A stretch of 37,306 nt of DNA from Balneolaceae bacterium (GTDB lineage Bacteria; Bacteroidota; Rhodothermia; Balneolales; Balneolaceae): contig SKYV01000117.1 of assembly GCA_007127745.1 (NCBI GenBank), positions 1-37,306 on the forward strand, given 5' to 3'. The notes under the pieces were generated by a model that saw nothing but the letters and a program-made list of their open reading frames with translations, was not told the DNA's origin and ran no database searches. The position numbers were made by a program, and so were the translations under genes. Of this stretch, positions 17,893-23,904 are shown in pieces (the stretch's first letter is position 1; each line of letters opens with the position of its first letter).

Positions 17893-19221
17893 TTATTTCA
17901 CCCGGATCAACCGTACGCCGAAGTGGCCGTCACAGCCGTGTTGATGCGGCAGGGTTTGATAGGCAAACCCATCTTCCACAAGAACTTCTTCAGGTAAAAA
18001 GTCTTCGAGTGATTCCAACTCGAAGTTGTCATATTTTTCCAGGAATTTCTGAACCTGTTCCCAGTTTTCTTCCGGCTCGATAGAGCATGTGCTGTAAATT
18101 AGCCTTCCGTCCCGTTTCACGTGATTTGCAGCCTCATCCAGCAGTTCTTCCTGAAGTTTTACGGCATTTTCGAGATCCTCTTCCGTGCGTTTCCAGCGCA
18201 GGTCGGCCCGTTTGCTCAAAACACCGGTTCCGGTACAGGGAGCATCCAGCAGTACGCCATCGGCCAGCTTCAGCTTGAGTTCACGCACATCATCCTTCCG
18301 GATTTTGATGTTTTCGGCATTGTAATCCATGGCACTTTGAGCCAGCATTTCGAGGCGGTTCGGGTTGATGTCGACGGCCATAATGGTTCCTTCACCCTGC
18401 ATCATATCCGACATCACAATGCTTTTGGTGCCTGGTGCGGCACACAGATCATAGATGGTTTCACCGGGCATCGGTTCAACAATGGTCGGGGCAAATCCTG
18501 CAGAAATATCCTGAACCAGGCAAATTCCTTTTTTCAGCAGCCCTTTTGAGATAAACGGGGCTACAGAATCTACCTTAAAATAGCCGGGAAGCCAGTCGCT
18601 CTCCTCAAATTCGATATCGAGCTTCTCCATCCGAAGTTTGAAATACTCGGTTTTGGTGCGGAGATTATTGACACGCACATAGTAGTTTGGCCGTTGATTG
18701 TTGGCCTGCATGAGCTGAAATGCTTCCCGTTCTCCGAAACGTTGTACCCACCGCTTCACCATCCATTCCGGATGAGAAAATGTGGTGGCAATCAGTTTGG
18801 TGCGATCTTCAAAAGCGGGTTTGGGGAGTTTGTTGATGTCTCGCTGAATATTTCGGAGGATGGCATTGACCAAATCGCCCGATTTGGAACCGAGTTTGAG
18901 TTTGGCAATTTCCACCGCTTCGTTGATCGTGGCATAATCCGGTGTGCCGCCCATAAACAGAAGCTCGTAAAGGCCGAGCCGGAGAATATTTTTCAGCATC
19001 GGTTTCATCTCTTCAACGGCGATGCTGGAAAACTGATTGATGATGAAATCGAGGTAACTTCTTCGCCGGAGAATGTTCTGCACATATTCGCGGGCCTGTG
19101 CACGTTCTCTGGGTTCAAGTTCATCGGCTGATGCAAAACTAAGCGAGCCGGTTTCGTCAAACGCTATTAAAATATCGATACTTTCAGATCGTGCAGTAGC
19201 TTCCGTTTCCAATGCTGTCAA
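17893..19221 (-). CDS. rsmB: 16S rRNA (cytosine-967-C5)-methyltransferase
   Basis: About 442 residues. The N-terminal about 130 residues form a NusB-like RNA-binding domain (REYVQNILRRRSYLDFIINQF, MLKNILRLGLYELLFM, INEAVEIAK). The C-terminal Rossmann methyltransferase has the SAM loop DLCAAPGTKS at about residue 257, motif IV DAPCTGTGVLSKRADLRW at about 325, and the catalytic-cysteine motif STCSIEPEENW at about 377. It methylates C967 of 16S rRNA using SAM. The start is uncertain: 19221 is a TTG, there is no ATG in frame before the conserved domain, and an in-frame stop lies 30 bp upstream. A TTG start at 19221 or 19212 is therefore likely. Confidence 0.94.
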   Translation of the reverse strand: MTALETEATARSESIDILIAFDETGSLSFASADELEPRERAQAREYVQNILRRRSYLDFIINQFSSIAVEEMKPMLKNILRLGLYELLFMGGTPDYATINEAVEIAKLKLGSKSGDLVNAILRNIQRDINKLPKPAFEDRTKLIATTFSHPEWMVKRWVQRFGEREAFQLMQANNQRPNYYVRVNNLRTKTEYFKLRMEKLDIEFEESDWLPGYFKVDSVAPFISKGLLKKGICLVQDISAGFAPTIVEPMPGETIYDLCAAPGTKSIVMSDMMQGEGTIMAVDINPNRLEMLAQSAMDYNAENIKIRKDDVRELKLKLADGVLLDAPCTGTGVLSKRADLRWKRTEEDLENAVKLQEELLDEAANHVKRDGRLIYSTCSIEPEENWEQVQKFLEKYDNFELESLEDFLPEEVLVEDGFAYQTLPHQHGCDGHFGVRLIRVK

Positions 19222-19439
19222 TAGGTTTAAAGTGTTAAAATTTCTGTCTCAATGAACTGATTTGCCCTTATTATACATCATAAAACAAGTCAGTTTTAAA
19301 TATAGAGCTTTGAACGTCTTTTTGCTAATTCAGGGTTGGATTAAAAAACATAATTCCGGCGGGATTTGGAATAGAGCAAATATTAGATGCAAATGAGACC
19401 TGGAATTTAAAAAGAAATCGAAGCCACTGAAGTCAAAAT

Positions 19440-19471
19440 GCGCCATGCACCGGGCGTTAAGCGGAATGTGG
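19440..19471. repeat. Dispersed 32-bp intergenic motif, copy A
   Basis: GCGCCATGCACCGGGCGTTA... matches the segment at 22453-22484 at 26 of 32 positions (shared core CCGGGCG and GAATGTGG). Each copy is followed by GACAGAACTTT, although at different distances (109 versus 19 bp). This supports a dispersed non-coding repeat. Confidence 0.6.
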
Positions 19472-19485
19472 TTTGGGGCGTGTGG

Positions 19486-19588
19486 AGTTCTGTCCTTAAA
19501 AAAATGGGAATGTTTTTTTAACCGCAGAAGGAAGTAAGGCAGAAATTGCAGTCATCAAAAACCTCCGCGGTTACTTCCTGACAGAACT
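19486..19588. repeat. Nested inverted-repeat element (MITE-like)
   Basis: The outer arms AGTTCTGTC (19486-19494) and GACAGAACT (19580-19588) are perfect 9-bp inverted copies. The inner arms TAACCGC (19519-19525) and GCGGTTA (19567-19573) are perfect 7-bp inverted copies. The element is 103 bp and codes for nothing. The related locus at 22453-22520 has the flanking motifs but only 19 bp between them, as expected if this copy gained an insertion. Confidence 0.5.
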
Positions 19589-19654
19589 TTGGCCTTGTTC
19601 GTTTTAACTACAGGAGCCGCTGAGGTGGATAGACCAGGATATAAAAACCAATAA

Positions 19655-21271
19655 TTACTGCTCCACGAACTCGAAGTTTTCTCCGTCAAAAAGGCCTTTG
19701 TCGCTCATCTTCAGACTGGGGATCACCAGCAGGGCCATGAACGAGATCAGCATAAACGGAGCTTTCAGGGTACTGCCCATTTCGCGGGATATTTTGCTGA
19801 GCCGTTCATATCCCCTGGCCACATCTTCCCCGGGGGCATCACTCATAATCCCGCCGATGGGAAGAGGAAGAATATTGGTTTGATCTCCGTGAACGGCCGA
19901 AATACCACCCTCATGTTCCATGATCAGATTCACAGCACGGCTCAAGAAATCATCCGAAGTTCCCACCACAATAATATTATGCGAATCGTGCGCCACGGAT
20001 GAGGCAATCGCACCGTTTTTCAGCCCAAAATTTTTGATGAACCCAACCGCCGGAGCTGATTCTTCGTAGCGGTTTACCACAGCAACTTTCAGGATATCAT
20101 TTTTGGGATCGGGTAAAACTTCGCCGTTCATAACCGGCAGGTTAACGACCTCTTTTTCTGTGATCAGCTCACCGTCACGGGCTACAATAACCTGCTGGGC
20201 CGAACGGTCCGAGCGCAGTTTAAAATCATCGGCTTCTACCTTGTATGAAGTGAAATTGTTGATTCGCCTGGACTCCACCTCGGGAAACTGAACCGCGTTA
20301 TCTTTAAATACCGGAATCCCGTCAATCCAGGTTTCCTTCACATTCATGGATTCGGGGCTGTCCACTACAATGAAATCTGCGGGATCACCCTTTTGAAGTA
20401 ATCCTATGTGCAAGTTGTAATGTTTTACGGGCAGCACCGATGCAGCGTGAAGAACATCAAACAGATCGTACCCGAGTTTGAGTGTGCGCGGCACCATTTC
20501 GTTGATGTGGCCGCGAATCAGGTCATCGGGATGTTTATCATCCGAACAAAACATCATTTTGCCGGGATACTCTCCAAGCAGGCTGATCAGTGCATTATAA
20601 TTTTTGGCCGCACTACCTTCGCGGATGGCGATCAGCATTCCCTGTTTCAGTTTATCCTCAGCCTCTTCTTTCGAAAAACTTTCGTGATCGGTACTGATTC
20701 CGGCTGATGCATATTTTACAGCCCGTTCACCTTTCAGCCCTGGCGCGTGGCCGTCAACCGGTTTTCCCAATTTTCTGGCCGACTCAATTTTTGCGAACAC
20801 CTCCGGATCATCATTCAGCACTCCCGGCCAGTTCATCATCTCGGCGAGATAGTGAATCTCATCTCTCTGCATTAATTCAGCCACATCATCCACATTCAGT
20901 TCGGCGCCGGCAGTTTCGAACGGAGTGGCCGGCACGCAAGACGGGGCACCAAAATAGAACTTCAGCGGCACTTTTTTTCCGTTTTCAATCATAAATTCCA
21001 CACCCTCTTTTCCGCAGACGTTGGCAATTTCGTGCGGATCGGAAACAGTGGCAACGGTGCCGTGTTTTACAGCAAGCCTGGCAAATTCCGAGGGCACCAG
21101 CATCGAGCTTTCGATATGAATGTGTGCATCCACCATACCGGGCATGATGTATTGTTTGGGTACATTCTCAGCCGGTTTGATGACGGTAATTTTTCCATTC
21201 TCAATCCTGACCTCTCCTTTAAAACGCTTTCGCTGAACCGGGTCGATAATGAATCCTTTCACTGATTTCAT
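19655..21271 (-). CDS. ade: Adenine deaminase
   Basis: Ade converts adenine to hypoxanthine and ammonia in purine salvage, in the cytoplasm. The protein is 538 residues, near the family norm. Amidohydrolase metal-site motifs are present: GMVDAHIHIESSML at about residues 45-58, TVATVSDPHEIANVCG at about 73-88, and a CSDDKHPDDLIRGHINEMV metal/base segment at about 241. The C-terminal Ade-specific domain has [18 protein letters not shown] at about 435 and SMTL-type hydrophobic MLISFMALLVIPSLKMSDKG at the end. It is 4-bp coupled (ATGA) to the upstream membrane-GNAT gene. No purine riboswitch-like fold was seen upstream. Confidence 0.95.
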   Translation of the reverse strand: MKSVKGFIIDPVQRKRFKGEVRIENGKITVIKPAENVPKQYIMPGMVDAHIHIESSMLVPSEFARLAVKHGTVATVSDPHEIANVCGKEGVEFMIENGKKVPLKFYFGAPSCVPATPFETAGAELNVDDVAELMQRDEIHYLAEMMNWPGVLNDDPEVFAKIESARKLGKPVDGHAPGLKGERAVKYASAGISTDHESFSKEEAEDKLKQGMLIAIREGSAAKNYNALISLLGEYPGKMMFCSDDKHPDDLIRGHINEMVPRTLKLGYDLFDVLHAASVLPVKHYNLHIGLLQKGDPADFIVVDSPESMNVKETWIDGIPVFKDNAVQFPEVESRRINNFTSYKVEADDFKLRSDRSAQQVIVARDGELITEKEVVNLPVMNGEVLPDPKNDILKVAVVNRYEESAPAVGFIKNFGLKNGAIASSVAHDSHNIIVVGTSDDFLSRAVNLIMEHEGGISAVHGDQTNILPLPIGGIMSDAPGEDVARGYERLSKISREMGSTLKAPFMLISFMALLVIPSLKMSDKGLFDGENFEFVEQ

Positions 21272-21906
21272 GTCTGTTCCGTAAGTTTATGTTGATATTG
21301 GCCGGGATCGTTGCTGCTGCGGACGAATCCAACCTTTTCCAGATAGTGGTTGTGTGCTTTGTTTCCGGCCGGAGTGGTGATAGTCCGAACCCCCTGGTTT
21401 CTAAAATAATGAACCTTATCGTTAAAAAGATAGTTGCCGATTTTAAAATCTCGGTAATCGGGAATCACATAATCGAGGTCGATGGCCAGTTTACCGTTCT
21501 CATCCAGATTCCCGAGAACAAGCCCGGCCGGGATCATATTACGCAGCACAAACAGGGTAAAGTTATGATTGTTACTGACCGTGAAATCCGGCTGAAAAGT
21601 ATGGATGCTCTCCCGGTGAAAGTTTAAAAATTCTTTCAAATATTCAGATTCTCCATGAATGCGAAGTAACCTGAAAAAATCTTTGTCTTTATAGATCTGA
21701 ATCAGATAGTAGATGTTTATCAGCACAATGAAACCGTTCATGGCGGCAACGGGTATTGAACCAATCAAAATTCCGTACACCGAAAACGTAAAGGCGCCGA
21801 TCATGTTCACGACTCTCAGTTTTACGATGGCGCTCATCATCAGGGAAATGGCTACCAGAATGGATGCCAGGTAGCCGATCAATTCATAAATAAGAGTGGT
21901 TTCCAT
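21268..21906 (-). CDS. Membrane protein with C-terminal GNAT-like acetyltransferase domain
   Basis: In this 212-residue protein, residues about 1-75 form three hydrophobic segments (IYELIGYLASILVAISLMM, VVNMIGAFTFSVYGILIG, VAAMNGFIVLINIYYLIQIY), resembling YgjV-like inner-membrane proteins. Residues about 85-205 look like a GNAT fold: NFTLFVLRNMIPAGLVLG, then IDLDYVIPDYRDFKIGNYLF (a diverged acyl-CoA loop, normally Q/RxxGxG/A), and TPAGNKAHNHYLEKVGF as the late GNAT motif. The acceptor is unknown, and the loop divergence leaves catalytic activity open. Its stop overlaps the ade start by 4 bp, so it is probably the first gene of a two-gene operon. Confidence 0.7.
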   Translation of the reverse strand: METTLIYELIGYLASILVAISLMMSAIVKLRVVNMIGAFTFSVYGILIGSIPVAAMNGFIVLINIYYLIQIYKDKDFFRLLRIHGESEYLKEFLNFHRESIHTFQPDFTVSNNHNFTLFVLRNMIPAGLVLGNLDENGKLAIDLDYVIPDYRDFKIGNYLFNDKVHYFRNQGVRTITTPAGNKAHNHYLEKVGFVRSSNDPGQYQHKLTEQT

Positions 21907-22074: not shown

Positions 22075-22210
22075 CGTCATGCCGGGCTTGATCCGGCATC
22101 TCCTGCTTAAATCAAAGATAGGAGATTTCATTACATGGGTATCGCTACGCTCGGAGCACTCCGCTATCGCTGCGTGTTCAGAAAATGAGCGTATCCAGTA
22201 CGGGATGACG
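22075..22210. repeat. Palindromic intergenic element with inverted ends
   Basis: The ends CGTCATGCCGGGCTTGAT (22075-22092) and ATCCAGTACGGGATGACG (22193-22210) are inverted relative to each other at 14 of 18 positions. Within it, ATGCCGG/CCGGCAT forms a 7-bp hairpin (22079-22099) and CGGAG-ca-CTCCG a second one (22152-22163). The 'CGTCATGCCGG..TTGATCCGGCAT' wording is typical of dispersed bacterial palindromic repeats. Confidence 0.55.
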
Positions 22211-22292
22211 CCCTTTTTGGACAGCCTCAGACTCATTTTTCCTTTTCTTATGTCGAACTGACGTTAAAATAAAATTATGCCCTTAAGAATTT

Positions 22293-22381
22293 AACCGCAG
22301 TGGGCGCAATGGAACGCTGAGGGGTGTAGAGTAAAATCACATCTATCGAAAACCTGCGCGCCTCCCCGTACGCTCGCGGTT
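22293..22381. repeat. AACCGC/GCGGTT inverted repeat
   Basis: AACCGC (22293-22298) and GCGGTT (22376-22381) are inverted, 89 bp end to end. They begin with the same TTAACCGCAG as the inner arm of the element at 19519. Like that element, this one sits close to a copy of the CCGGGCG/GAATGTGG motif. Confidence 0.45.
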
Positions 22382-22393
22382 TTTATTCATCAC

Positions 22394-22424
22394 TCGTCTG
22401 ACGATTGCTTTTTTCGTCTGACGA
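22394..22424. promoter_or_regulatory. Two 11-bp palindromes TCGTCTGACGA, 20 bp apart
   Basis: TCGTCTGACGA occurs at 22394-22404 and again at 22414-22424. Each is a palindrome around a central base, and they start exactly 20 bp apart, about two helical turns. This resembles paired operator sites. The nearest downstream promoter would be that of the GNAT-ade operon, nearly 500 bp away, so a repeat origin is equally possible. Confidence 0.3.
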
Positions 22425-22452
22425 ATATTAAGGTCCATTTCTATCTATCAAA

Positions 22453-22484
22453 GTGCCAAGCGCCGGGCGCTATGCAGAATGTGG
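22453..22484. repeat. Dispersed 32-bp intergenic motif, copy B
   Basis: GTGCCAAGCGCCGGGCGCTA... is the counterpart of 19440-19471 (26/32 identical). GACAGAACTTT follows at 22503, 19 bp later, with no inserted nested repeat as in copy A. Confidence 0.6.
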
Positions 22485-22527
22485 TGGGATGATTTTCTAA
22501 CAGACAGAACTTTAGGCTTGCCCATTT

Positions 22528-23037
22528 TTAATCCATTTTGTCGTGTGTTACCTCAATGCTAACCCCGCCGGCAAGAGTCTGATAAACCACACAAAAACGT
22601 TCGGTCAGTTTCAGAAGAGTTGCTATATCTTCATCAGACGCATCGGTTTGAAGCCTGTAATGAAGGCGGATATTTTTGAAACCTACCGGCGCTTCTTTGG
22701 ATACACCCAATGTTCCCCGGAAATCGAGATCGCCCTCTGCTGAAACTTCGGCATCTTCAAGGTTCAGTTCTATAGCTTTGGCTACGGTATTGAGGGTAAC
22801 GCCGGCACAGGCCACGAGGGCTTCAAGCAGCATATCCCCCGAGCAGGCTTGAATTCCCGAGCCTCCGGTGGCCGGATGGTGGCCCGCCTCAACAAGTGCT
22901 TTGCCCGTTTCAACTTTGCAGGAGAGATTTTCACCGATTCGCCCGGAGGCCCTTAGCGTAACCACCGCCGATTCCGGGTCCTCTTTATACTTTTGTTTGA
23001 TTGGAGCCTGAATGGCTCTCAGTTTTTCAGCATCCAT
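22528..23037 (-). CDS. OsmC family protein
   Basis: This 169-residue OsmC-like protein has a first conserved cysteine region at GSGIQACSGDMLLEALVACAGVTLNTVAKA (about residues 58-87), containing two cysteines 12 residues apart, and a C-terminal LTERFCVVYQTLAGGVSIEV segment with another cysteine near residue 148. OsmC/Ohr proteins are cytoplasmic dimers that reduce organic hydroperoxides through a Cys pair. The 'C.GDMLLEALVACAG' style matches the broader OsmC/YhfA group rather than Ohr, so a detoxification role is probable but the substrate is open. It reads in the same direction as the DoxX-like gene 51 bp upstream and could be co-transcribed with it. Confidence 0.88.
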   Translation of the reverse strand: MDAEKLRAIQAPIKQKYKEDPESAVVTLRASGRIGENLSCKVETGKALVEAGHHPATGGSGIQACSGDMLLEALVACAGVTLNTVAKAIELNLEDAEVSAEGDLDFRGTLGVSKEAPVGFKNIRLHYRLQTDASDEDIATLLKLTERFCVVYQTLAGGVSIEVTHDKMD

Positions 23038-23466: not shown

Positions 23467-23904
23467 AATTTAACTCATTTTAATTAAGGTTGTAATCTGC
23501 AACGAATGTAAGCGATCAATCGTTGCAGAATCTCTGTCAATAACACGTACACAACAGATTCCGGATTGTGTGTCAGTTACGATTCACCTCAAAATAACGG
23601 CTATCCGGCATTATTTCAGCGTATATATTATAATTTGTTTAAGGCTCATAAGCACAAGCGGGACGCTTGCGCCATCACTTGAATGGCAATGGCGCAAACG
23701 TCTCGTTTGTGCCGTGTGTGTCTTAGCATTCGTATCTGGATGGCGCAAACGTTTCGTTTGTGCCAAATGTACCCTTATCATTTGTACTACTCTTTCACAA
23801 CTCTGCCAGGATCCGAAAAAGCACGGCGCTCTGGCAGTTTGTATGATTCTGTTTTCTAATTCTTTATTCCTGGCGAACCGAGGCGTCGGGATGCCTTTGA
23901 TGCA
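23467..23904. other. Intergenic region with REP-like palindromes between the OsmC/DoxX genes and cydC
   Basis: This is 438 bp without a gene. The part next to 23467 is the likely promoter side of the DoxX-OsmC pair. The centre holds three REP-like palindromes. The cydC-proximal part is the 3' flank of the cyd operon; no convincing terminator with a T-run was found there. ORF 23570-23908 repeats WRKR-VCA because it crosses the palindromes and is rejected. Confidence 0.6.
23651..23764. repeat. Triplet of REP-like palindromes
   Basis: Three 23-bp palindromes with a 3-nt loop lie in 114 bp: 23651-23673 (core GCACAAGCG-gga-CGCTTGCGC), 23691-23713 (GGCGCAAACG-tct-CGTTTGTGCC) and 23742-23764 (GGCGCAAACG-ttt-CGTTTGTGCC). 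The second and third are in direct orientation 51 bp apart; the first is inverted relative to them. All three share the same single off-centre mismatch (G·U when transcribed), which defines orientation as in REP elements. Confidence 0.75.

Follow-up and report, generated by a model that had tools for sequence, protein, structure and literature searches.

Does the set of nested inverted repeats between rsmB (17893-19221, minus strand) and an adenine deaminase gene (19655-21271, minus strand) mark a young insertion? The original prediction compared this place (locus A) with a related motif (locus B) between a GNAT-domain gene (21268-21906) and osmC (22528-23037), and read A as carrying a small non-autonomous mobile or hairpin element of about 90 bp that B lacks. 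We addressed this question in the window, the whole 37,306-nt stretch of Balneolaceae DNA analysed here. The observations behind the prediction are accurate: the outer arms AGTTCTGTC (19486-19494) and GACAGAACT (19580-19588) are perfect, as are the inner arms TAACCGC (19519-19525) and GCGGTTA (19567-19573), and GAATGTGG and GACAGAACTTT stand 109 nt apart at A versus about 19 nt at B. Nor is the similarity of the two loci due to chance, as 19433-19472 and 22448-22485 align with a score of 39, whereas the maximum over 500 dinucleotide shuffles is 30. Based on the modules, their order, their copies and the linker register, all observed in this analysis, we conclude that the feature at A is probably a decayed part of an intergenic mosaic repeat, built of modules D, P, L and H in recurring order, in which the 90-bp 'insert' is one H plus L unit.

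A mosaic of recurring modules

Module P runs from CCGGGCG to GAATGTGG, L is a linker ending just before TTTTAACCGC, and H is a hairpin, AACCGC...GCGGTT, usually about 90-100 nt long and flanked by linkers on both sides. The features of the two loci are as follows (C handles are sites in the same genome, or in the relative G012 where so marked).

19433..19472, plus strand: module P at locus A, a palindrome-like block ending in CACCGGGCGTTAAGCGGAATGTGGT, shared with B (local alignment score 39, equalled by 0 of 500 shuffles)
19473..19514, plus strand: left linker at locus A, L1 class, decayed; in register with L1 at C64, C43, C261, G012 C90 (two) and C180
19515..19574, plus strand: hairpin H at locus A, stem mostly deleted; 23.5 bits, E 8.8e-5 with model R2, built without the window copies
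19575..19603, plus strand: right linker at locus A, RL class, GACAGAACTTTGG.CTTG; this post-H linker is also at C64 (two copies), C261, C207 and G012 C278
19601..19654, plus strand: decayed start of a second H (H'), TTTTAACTACAGGAGCCGCTGAGG...; 21.3 bits, E 7e-4 with model R1 and 16.5 bits, E 0.01 with R2
22288..22383, plus strand: almost complete hairpin H of locus B, lying upstream of P; 52.6 bits, E 2.1e-13 with R2, built without it
22394..22424, plus strand: module D at locus B, two TCGTCTGACGA palindromes; 4 strand matches versus 0.41 expected
22448..22485, plus strand: module P at locus B; local alignment with A, score 39
22486..22528, plus strand: linker at locus B, L2 class, GATTTTCTAACAGACAGAACTTTAGGCTTGCCC; in register with L2 at G012 C90, C180 and C70

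The order of modules is thus P-L1-H-RL-(H') at A and H-D-P-L2-(H' trace) at B, where the trace, TTTTTAATCC, follows the linker just before the osmC end, and the hairpin at B sits on the opposite side of P compared with A. The order D-P-L-H-L is met at several intergenic sites, the mosaic arrangement that characterizes bacterial interspersed mosaic elements (BIMEs), and D precedes P also at C64 and at G012 C90 and C70.

The hairpin at A is a shortened one. It retains the base of the stem (TTTTTTAACCGCAG / CCTCCGCGGTTA) and the loop side (GGCAGAAATTGCAGTCATCAAAAACC), and alignment with other copies shows it to lack about 20 nt per side of the stem. The covariance model R2, built from six H copies with both window copies excluded to guard against circularity, detects H at B, at A and, weakly, past the right linker of A (19601-19680, E 0.01), the E-values of these models being rough. 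The H' match reaches 19680, inside the adenine deaminase gene, and its 3' part is doubtful; its weakness counts against our reading.

Aligning the genomic copies, the check that had been proposed for the insertion, did reveal other copies, among which A-like and B-like arrangements each recur. We searched the genome to which the window belongs (3.07 Mb in 287 contigs; a draft, 94% complete). With A as query, short matches appeared at C64, C207, C43 and C261, and a longer hairpin, TTTAACCGCAGTGGGCGCAAAGGAACGCAGAGG ... CATCAAAAAC ... TGCGCCCTTCGCGGTTAA followed by CTCCTGACAGAACTTTGG, was found at C64:421-520 and C261:2079-2179. The C64 copy as query added a second C64 copy and the hairpin upstream of P at B, and G012 C62 as query had no match in this genome. 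The exact word GACAGAACTTT occurs six times, compared with none for the backward control and about 1.5 expected from a simple base count. Contigs of 3-5 kb carry several of the copies, and such repeats may therefore limit the assembly of these metagenome-assembled genomes (MAGs).

Other repeats were seen alongside these modules. Three copies of H (L028 (G000:C64), about 1200-1243; L071, 1501-1540; L212, 123-165) share a small palindrome, CCTCCTGCGCCAAGGCTTCGGAGGACAAG, at an identical position in their left arm, behind AACCGCAG, which gives the appearance of one repeat nested within another. A 23-nt palindrome, GGCRCAARCGNNNCGYTTGYGCC, has three copies between 23466 and 23905 (window 23651-23764), versus 0.02 expected by chance, with a similar sequence at C187 of the same genome. 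Upstream of the locus B hairpin, a further intergenic repeat-like stretch (TGCCGGGCTTGATCCGGCATCTCC ... AGTACGGGATGACG, 22076-22215) has a relative at C15.

Linker register of A and B

To place the two loci in register, we aligned 19 linkers with MAFFT. Together with the copies of module P, they come from two draft genomes only, that of the window and G012, the closest relative compared (RsmB 97% identical). All 19 run into TTTTAACCGC or a remnant of it. Two classes follow P, namely L1 (GGGGAGTTCTCTCCTTAAATAAAAATTTGAGCCTTACGG), with seven copies counting that of A, and L2 (GGGATTTTCTAACAGACAGAACTTTGGGCTTGCCCG), with four counting that of B; one class, RL (CTCCTGACAGAACTTTGGACTTGTCCG), follows H, with six copies counting that of A. 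In register, L1 and L2 align with a mean score of 24.0, against a shuffle maximum of 17.5 and a reversed control of 9.6. The left linker of A scores 28.5 on average against the L1 copies (shuffle maximum 25.8) and 10.9 against the L2 class on its own, which is not above shuffles, such that its link to L2 goes via L1.

The GACAGAACTTT linker of B, an L2 copy, therefore aligns by position with the left linker of A, whereas A's own GACAGAACTTT belongs to a second linker, downstream of H, with five other post-H occurrences. Because the linker of B pairs with the left linker of A, the '90-bp insert' is one extra H plus L unit: A does hold a repeat unit without a counterpart at the equivalent position of B, and H is indeed a dispersed hairpin repeat, but the unit was not inserted into a B-like site. 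B also carries its own H, upstream of P. Linkers of the L1 and L2 types both follow other P blocks in the two genomes, and thus neither the A form nor the B form is unique.

Alternatively, B could be the changed form, having lost the H plus L unit after P through recombination between two linker copies. The order P-L-H-L is found at C64 and C261 besides A, the linkers flanking H are alike enough to recombine, and the last part of B, TTTTTAATCC, is a trace of the start of H. However, G012 has three places where an L2 linker comes after P, two of them still leading into AACCGCAG, so B could just be an L2-class locus whose H has decayed, and we regard a loss at B as unlikely.

Still less probable, and already largely refuted by the linker register, is the insertion into a B-like site at A of a small non-autonomous element, some 90 bp long and with AGTTCTGTC and GACAGAACT as its ends. 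That reading rests on joining the L2 linker of B to the RL linker of A, the wrong linker copy. It can point to the perfect outer arms, to the real difference in length and to the wealth of inverted repeats in the A block, yet the outer left arm falls inside the left linker of A and the outer right arm inside the right linker, and the two do not recur as a pair in other copies. At the position of the left arm, these have AGTTCTCTC (C64, C43) or GAGTTTGTTC (C261), and the left side of C64:421-520 is without any such arm; the right arm is a piece of linker that is found elsewhere with no left arm, and GACAGAACT is still present at B, the supposed empty site. No target-site duplication was seen at A.

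One perfect arm of 9 bp or more carries little weight as evidence: within 120 nt, at least one arises in 24% of shuffled versions of the 433-nt intergenic region and in 7.5% of those of the 180-nt block. Three perfect 9-bp inverted repeats are present in the block versus 0.08 expected, one of them an A7/T7 run, an excess that our relic reading leaves unexplained. The inner arms fall inside the hairpin H of A and are real family features, since they recur in other copies as the AACCGC/GCGGTT ends of H. A function of the nested arms at A is not demonstrated.

The least credible alternative makes H an RNA or terminator-like hairpin under selection, with A acting as a structured functional element of the transcript from the adenine deaminase/rsmB region. 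The A block reaches a folding energy of -29.4 kcal/mol (z -2.26, moderately better than shuffles), and an AACCGC...GCGGTT hairpin directly follows rsmB, before the next gene, in several congeners (L184, L185, L187, L190, L191), with four pairs changed on both sides among six sequences (weak covariation, its score reached by 6 of 500 shuffles), but the A fold pairs arms special to A and not the family stem, no intrinsic terminator (GC-rich stem plus T run) was found in 19200-19680 on either strand, neither the window nor five loci with H match Rfam at the gathering score, and the dispersed H copies show no covariation beyond shuffles (110 of 500 reach the score).

Distribution and search for a mobilizer

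H-type hairpins are present in 24 of 28 congeneric genomes (E up to 0.1), with match counts that overstate the copy number because H is palindromic and often matches on both strands. The DNA of G012 is 92% identical to the window up to 19351 and wholly different thereafter, and as homology upstream of rsmB ends there the A site is not comparable with G012. G022 has no AACCGC hairpin after rsmB, but its flanks have diverged too far for an empty site to be read. On the other side of A, gene order around the adenine deaminase gene differs among congeners; among the relatives of this gene that have titles, Balneolaceae MAGs predominate, many of them bearing sediment sample codes. G012 is without a close orthologue of the osmC side of locus B. 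Two further H sites have what look like orthologues in G012 (C261/G012 C278 and C235/G012 C26), and at each of them both genomes carry the hairpin. Beyond this genus, phage records gave no match, and plasmid records gave one partial match, a 37-nt half-unit with 89% identity on a Gemmatirosa plasmid.

Upstream of rsmB at L211 (G012:C207), direct repeats of about 330 nt (408-736 and 1822-2148, 88-96% identical) flank two genes that resemble, by eye, an MNT-type nucleotidyltransferase and a HEPN-like partner.

Among the genes of the window's own genome, two have weak Y1_Tnp matches, and the flanks of both hold no significant H, A or B block, an absence that is not final in a 94%-complete draft. 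A RAYT-linked REP/BIME system is not supported, the Y1 genes not being flanked by H as a cognate RAYT would be.

Comparison with known repeat systems

The nested repeats at A are a shortened copy of a hairpin in a patchwork of intergenic repeats and hence not a fresh insertion. H, its linkers and the neighbouring palindromes would have been copied as a mosaic, of which the copy at A now appears to be decaying. The copies may have dispersed either as non-autonomous DNA or through recombination of one module with another, and recombination or slippage between linkers could alter the number of units. The feature is ordinary, with modest descriptive novelty. Its wider value is twofold: a dispersed hairpin repeat family is now documented in Balneolaceae, and the locus illustrates how a mosaic of repeats can be mistaken for a recent insertion if two loci are matched via the wrong repeat copies. 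We found this family in neither Rfam nor the literature searched by motif letters and by family name.

In being short, non-coding, ended by inverted repeats and dispersed in intergenic DNA, H resembles a miniature inverted-repeat transposable element (MITE). Unlike in a MITE, no target-site duplication was seen here and the outer arms are not conserved between copies; we do not claim membership, because neither target duplications nor empty sites could be shown and because of those unconserved arms.

REPINs are paired inverted REPs (PMC3116915). H is likewise made of two inverted copies of a degenerate unit (about AACCGCNNAGNNCGCNNAGNNNCGCNNAG), and this unit also occurs singly. The REPs in REPINs form a short hairpin, whereas the arms of H are about 25-30 nt long, and no linked transposase has been shown for H. 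It is conceivable, although we would not favour it, that H and its linkers are an undescribed REPIN-like non-autonomous family in this Balneolaceae genus, possibly wider given the Gemmatirosa plasmid, and moved by some transposase that has still to be linked with it.

The module sequences are, to our knowledge, unrelated to enterobacterial BIME units. Tens of copies at most are found here, compared with the more than 100 per genome that are usual for REPs, and no RAYT gene was found adjoining the modules; membership of the RAYT-linked REPs is not claimed, because a linked transposase was looked for and not found. BIMEs are built from REP sequences, as palindromic units and spacers (PMC2817692). 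The modules described here share this design, being short intergenic palindromes with spacers in serial order and in variable unit number, and the best label for the feature at A is a BIME-like intergenic repeat relic.
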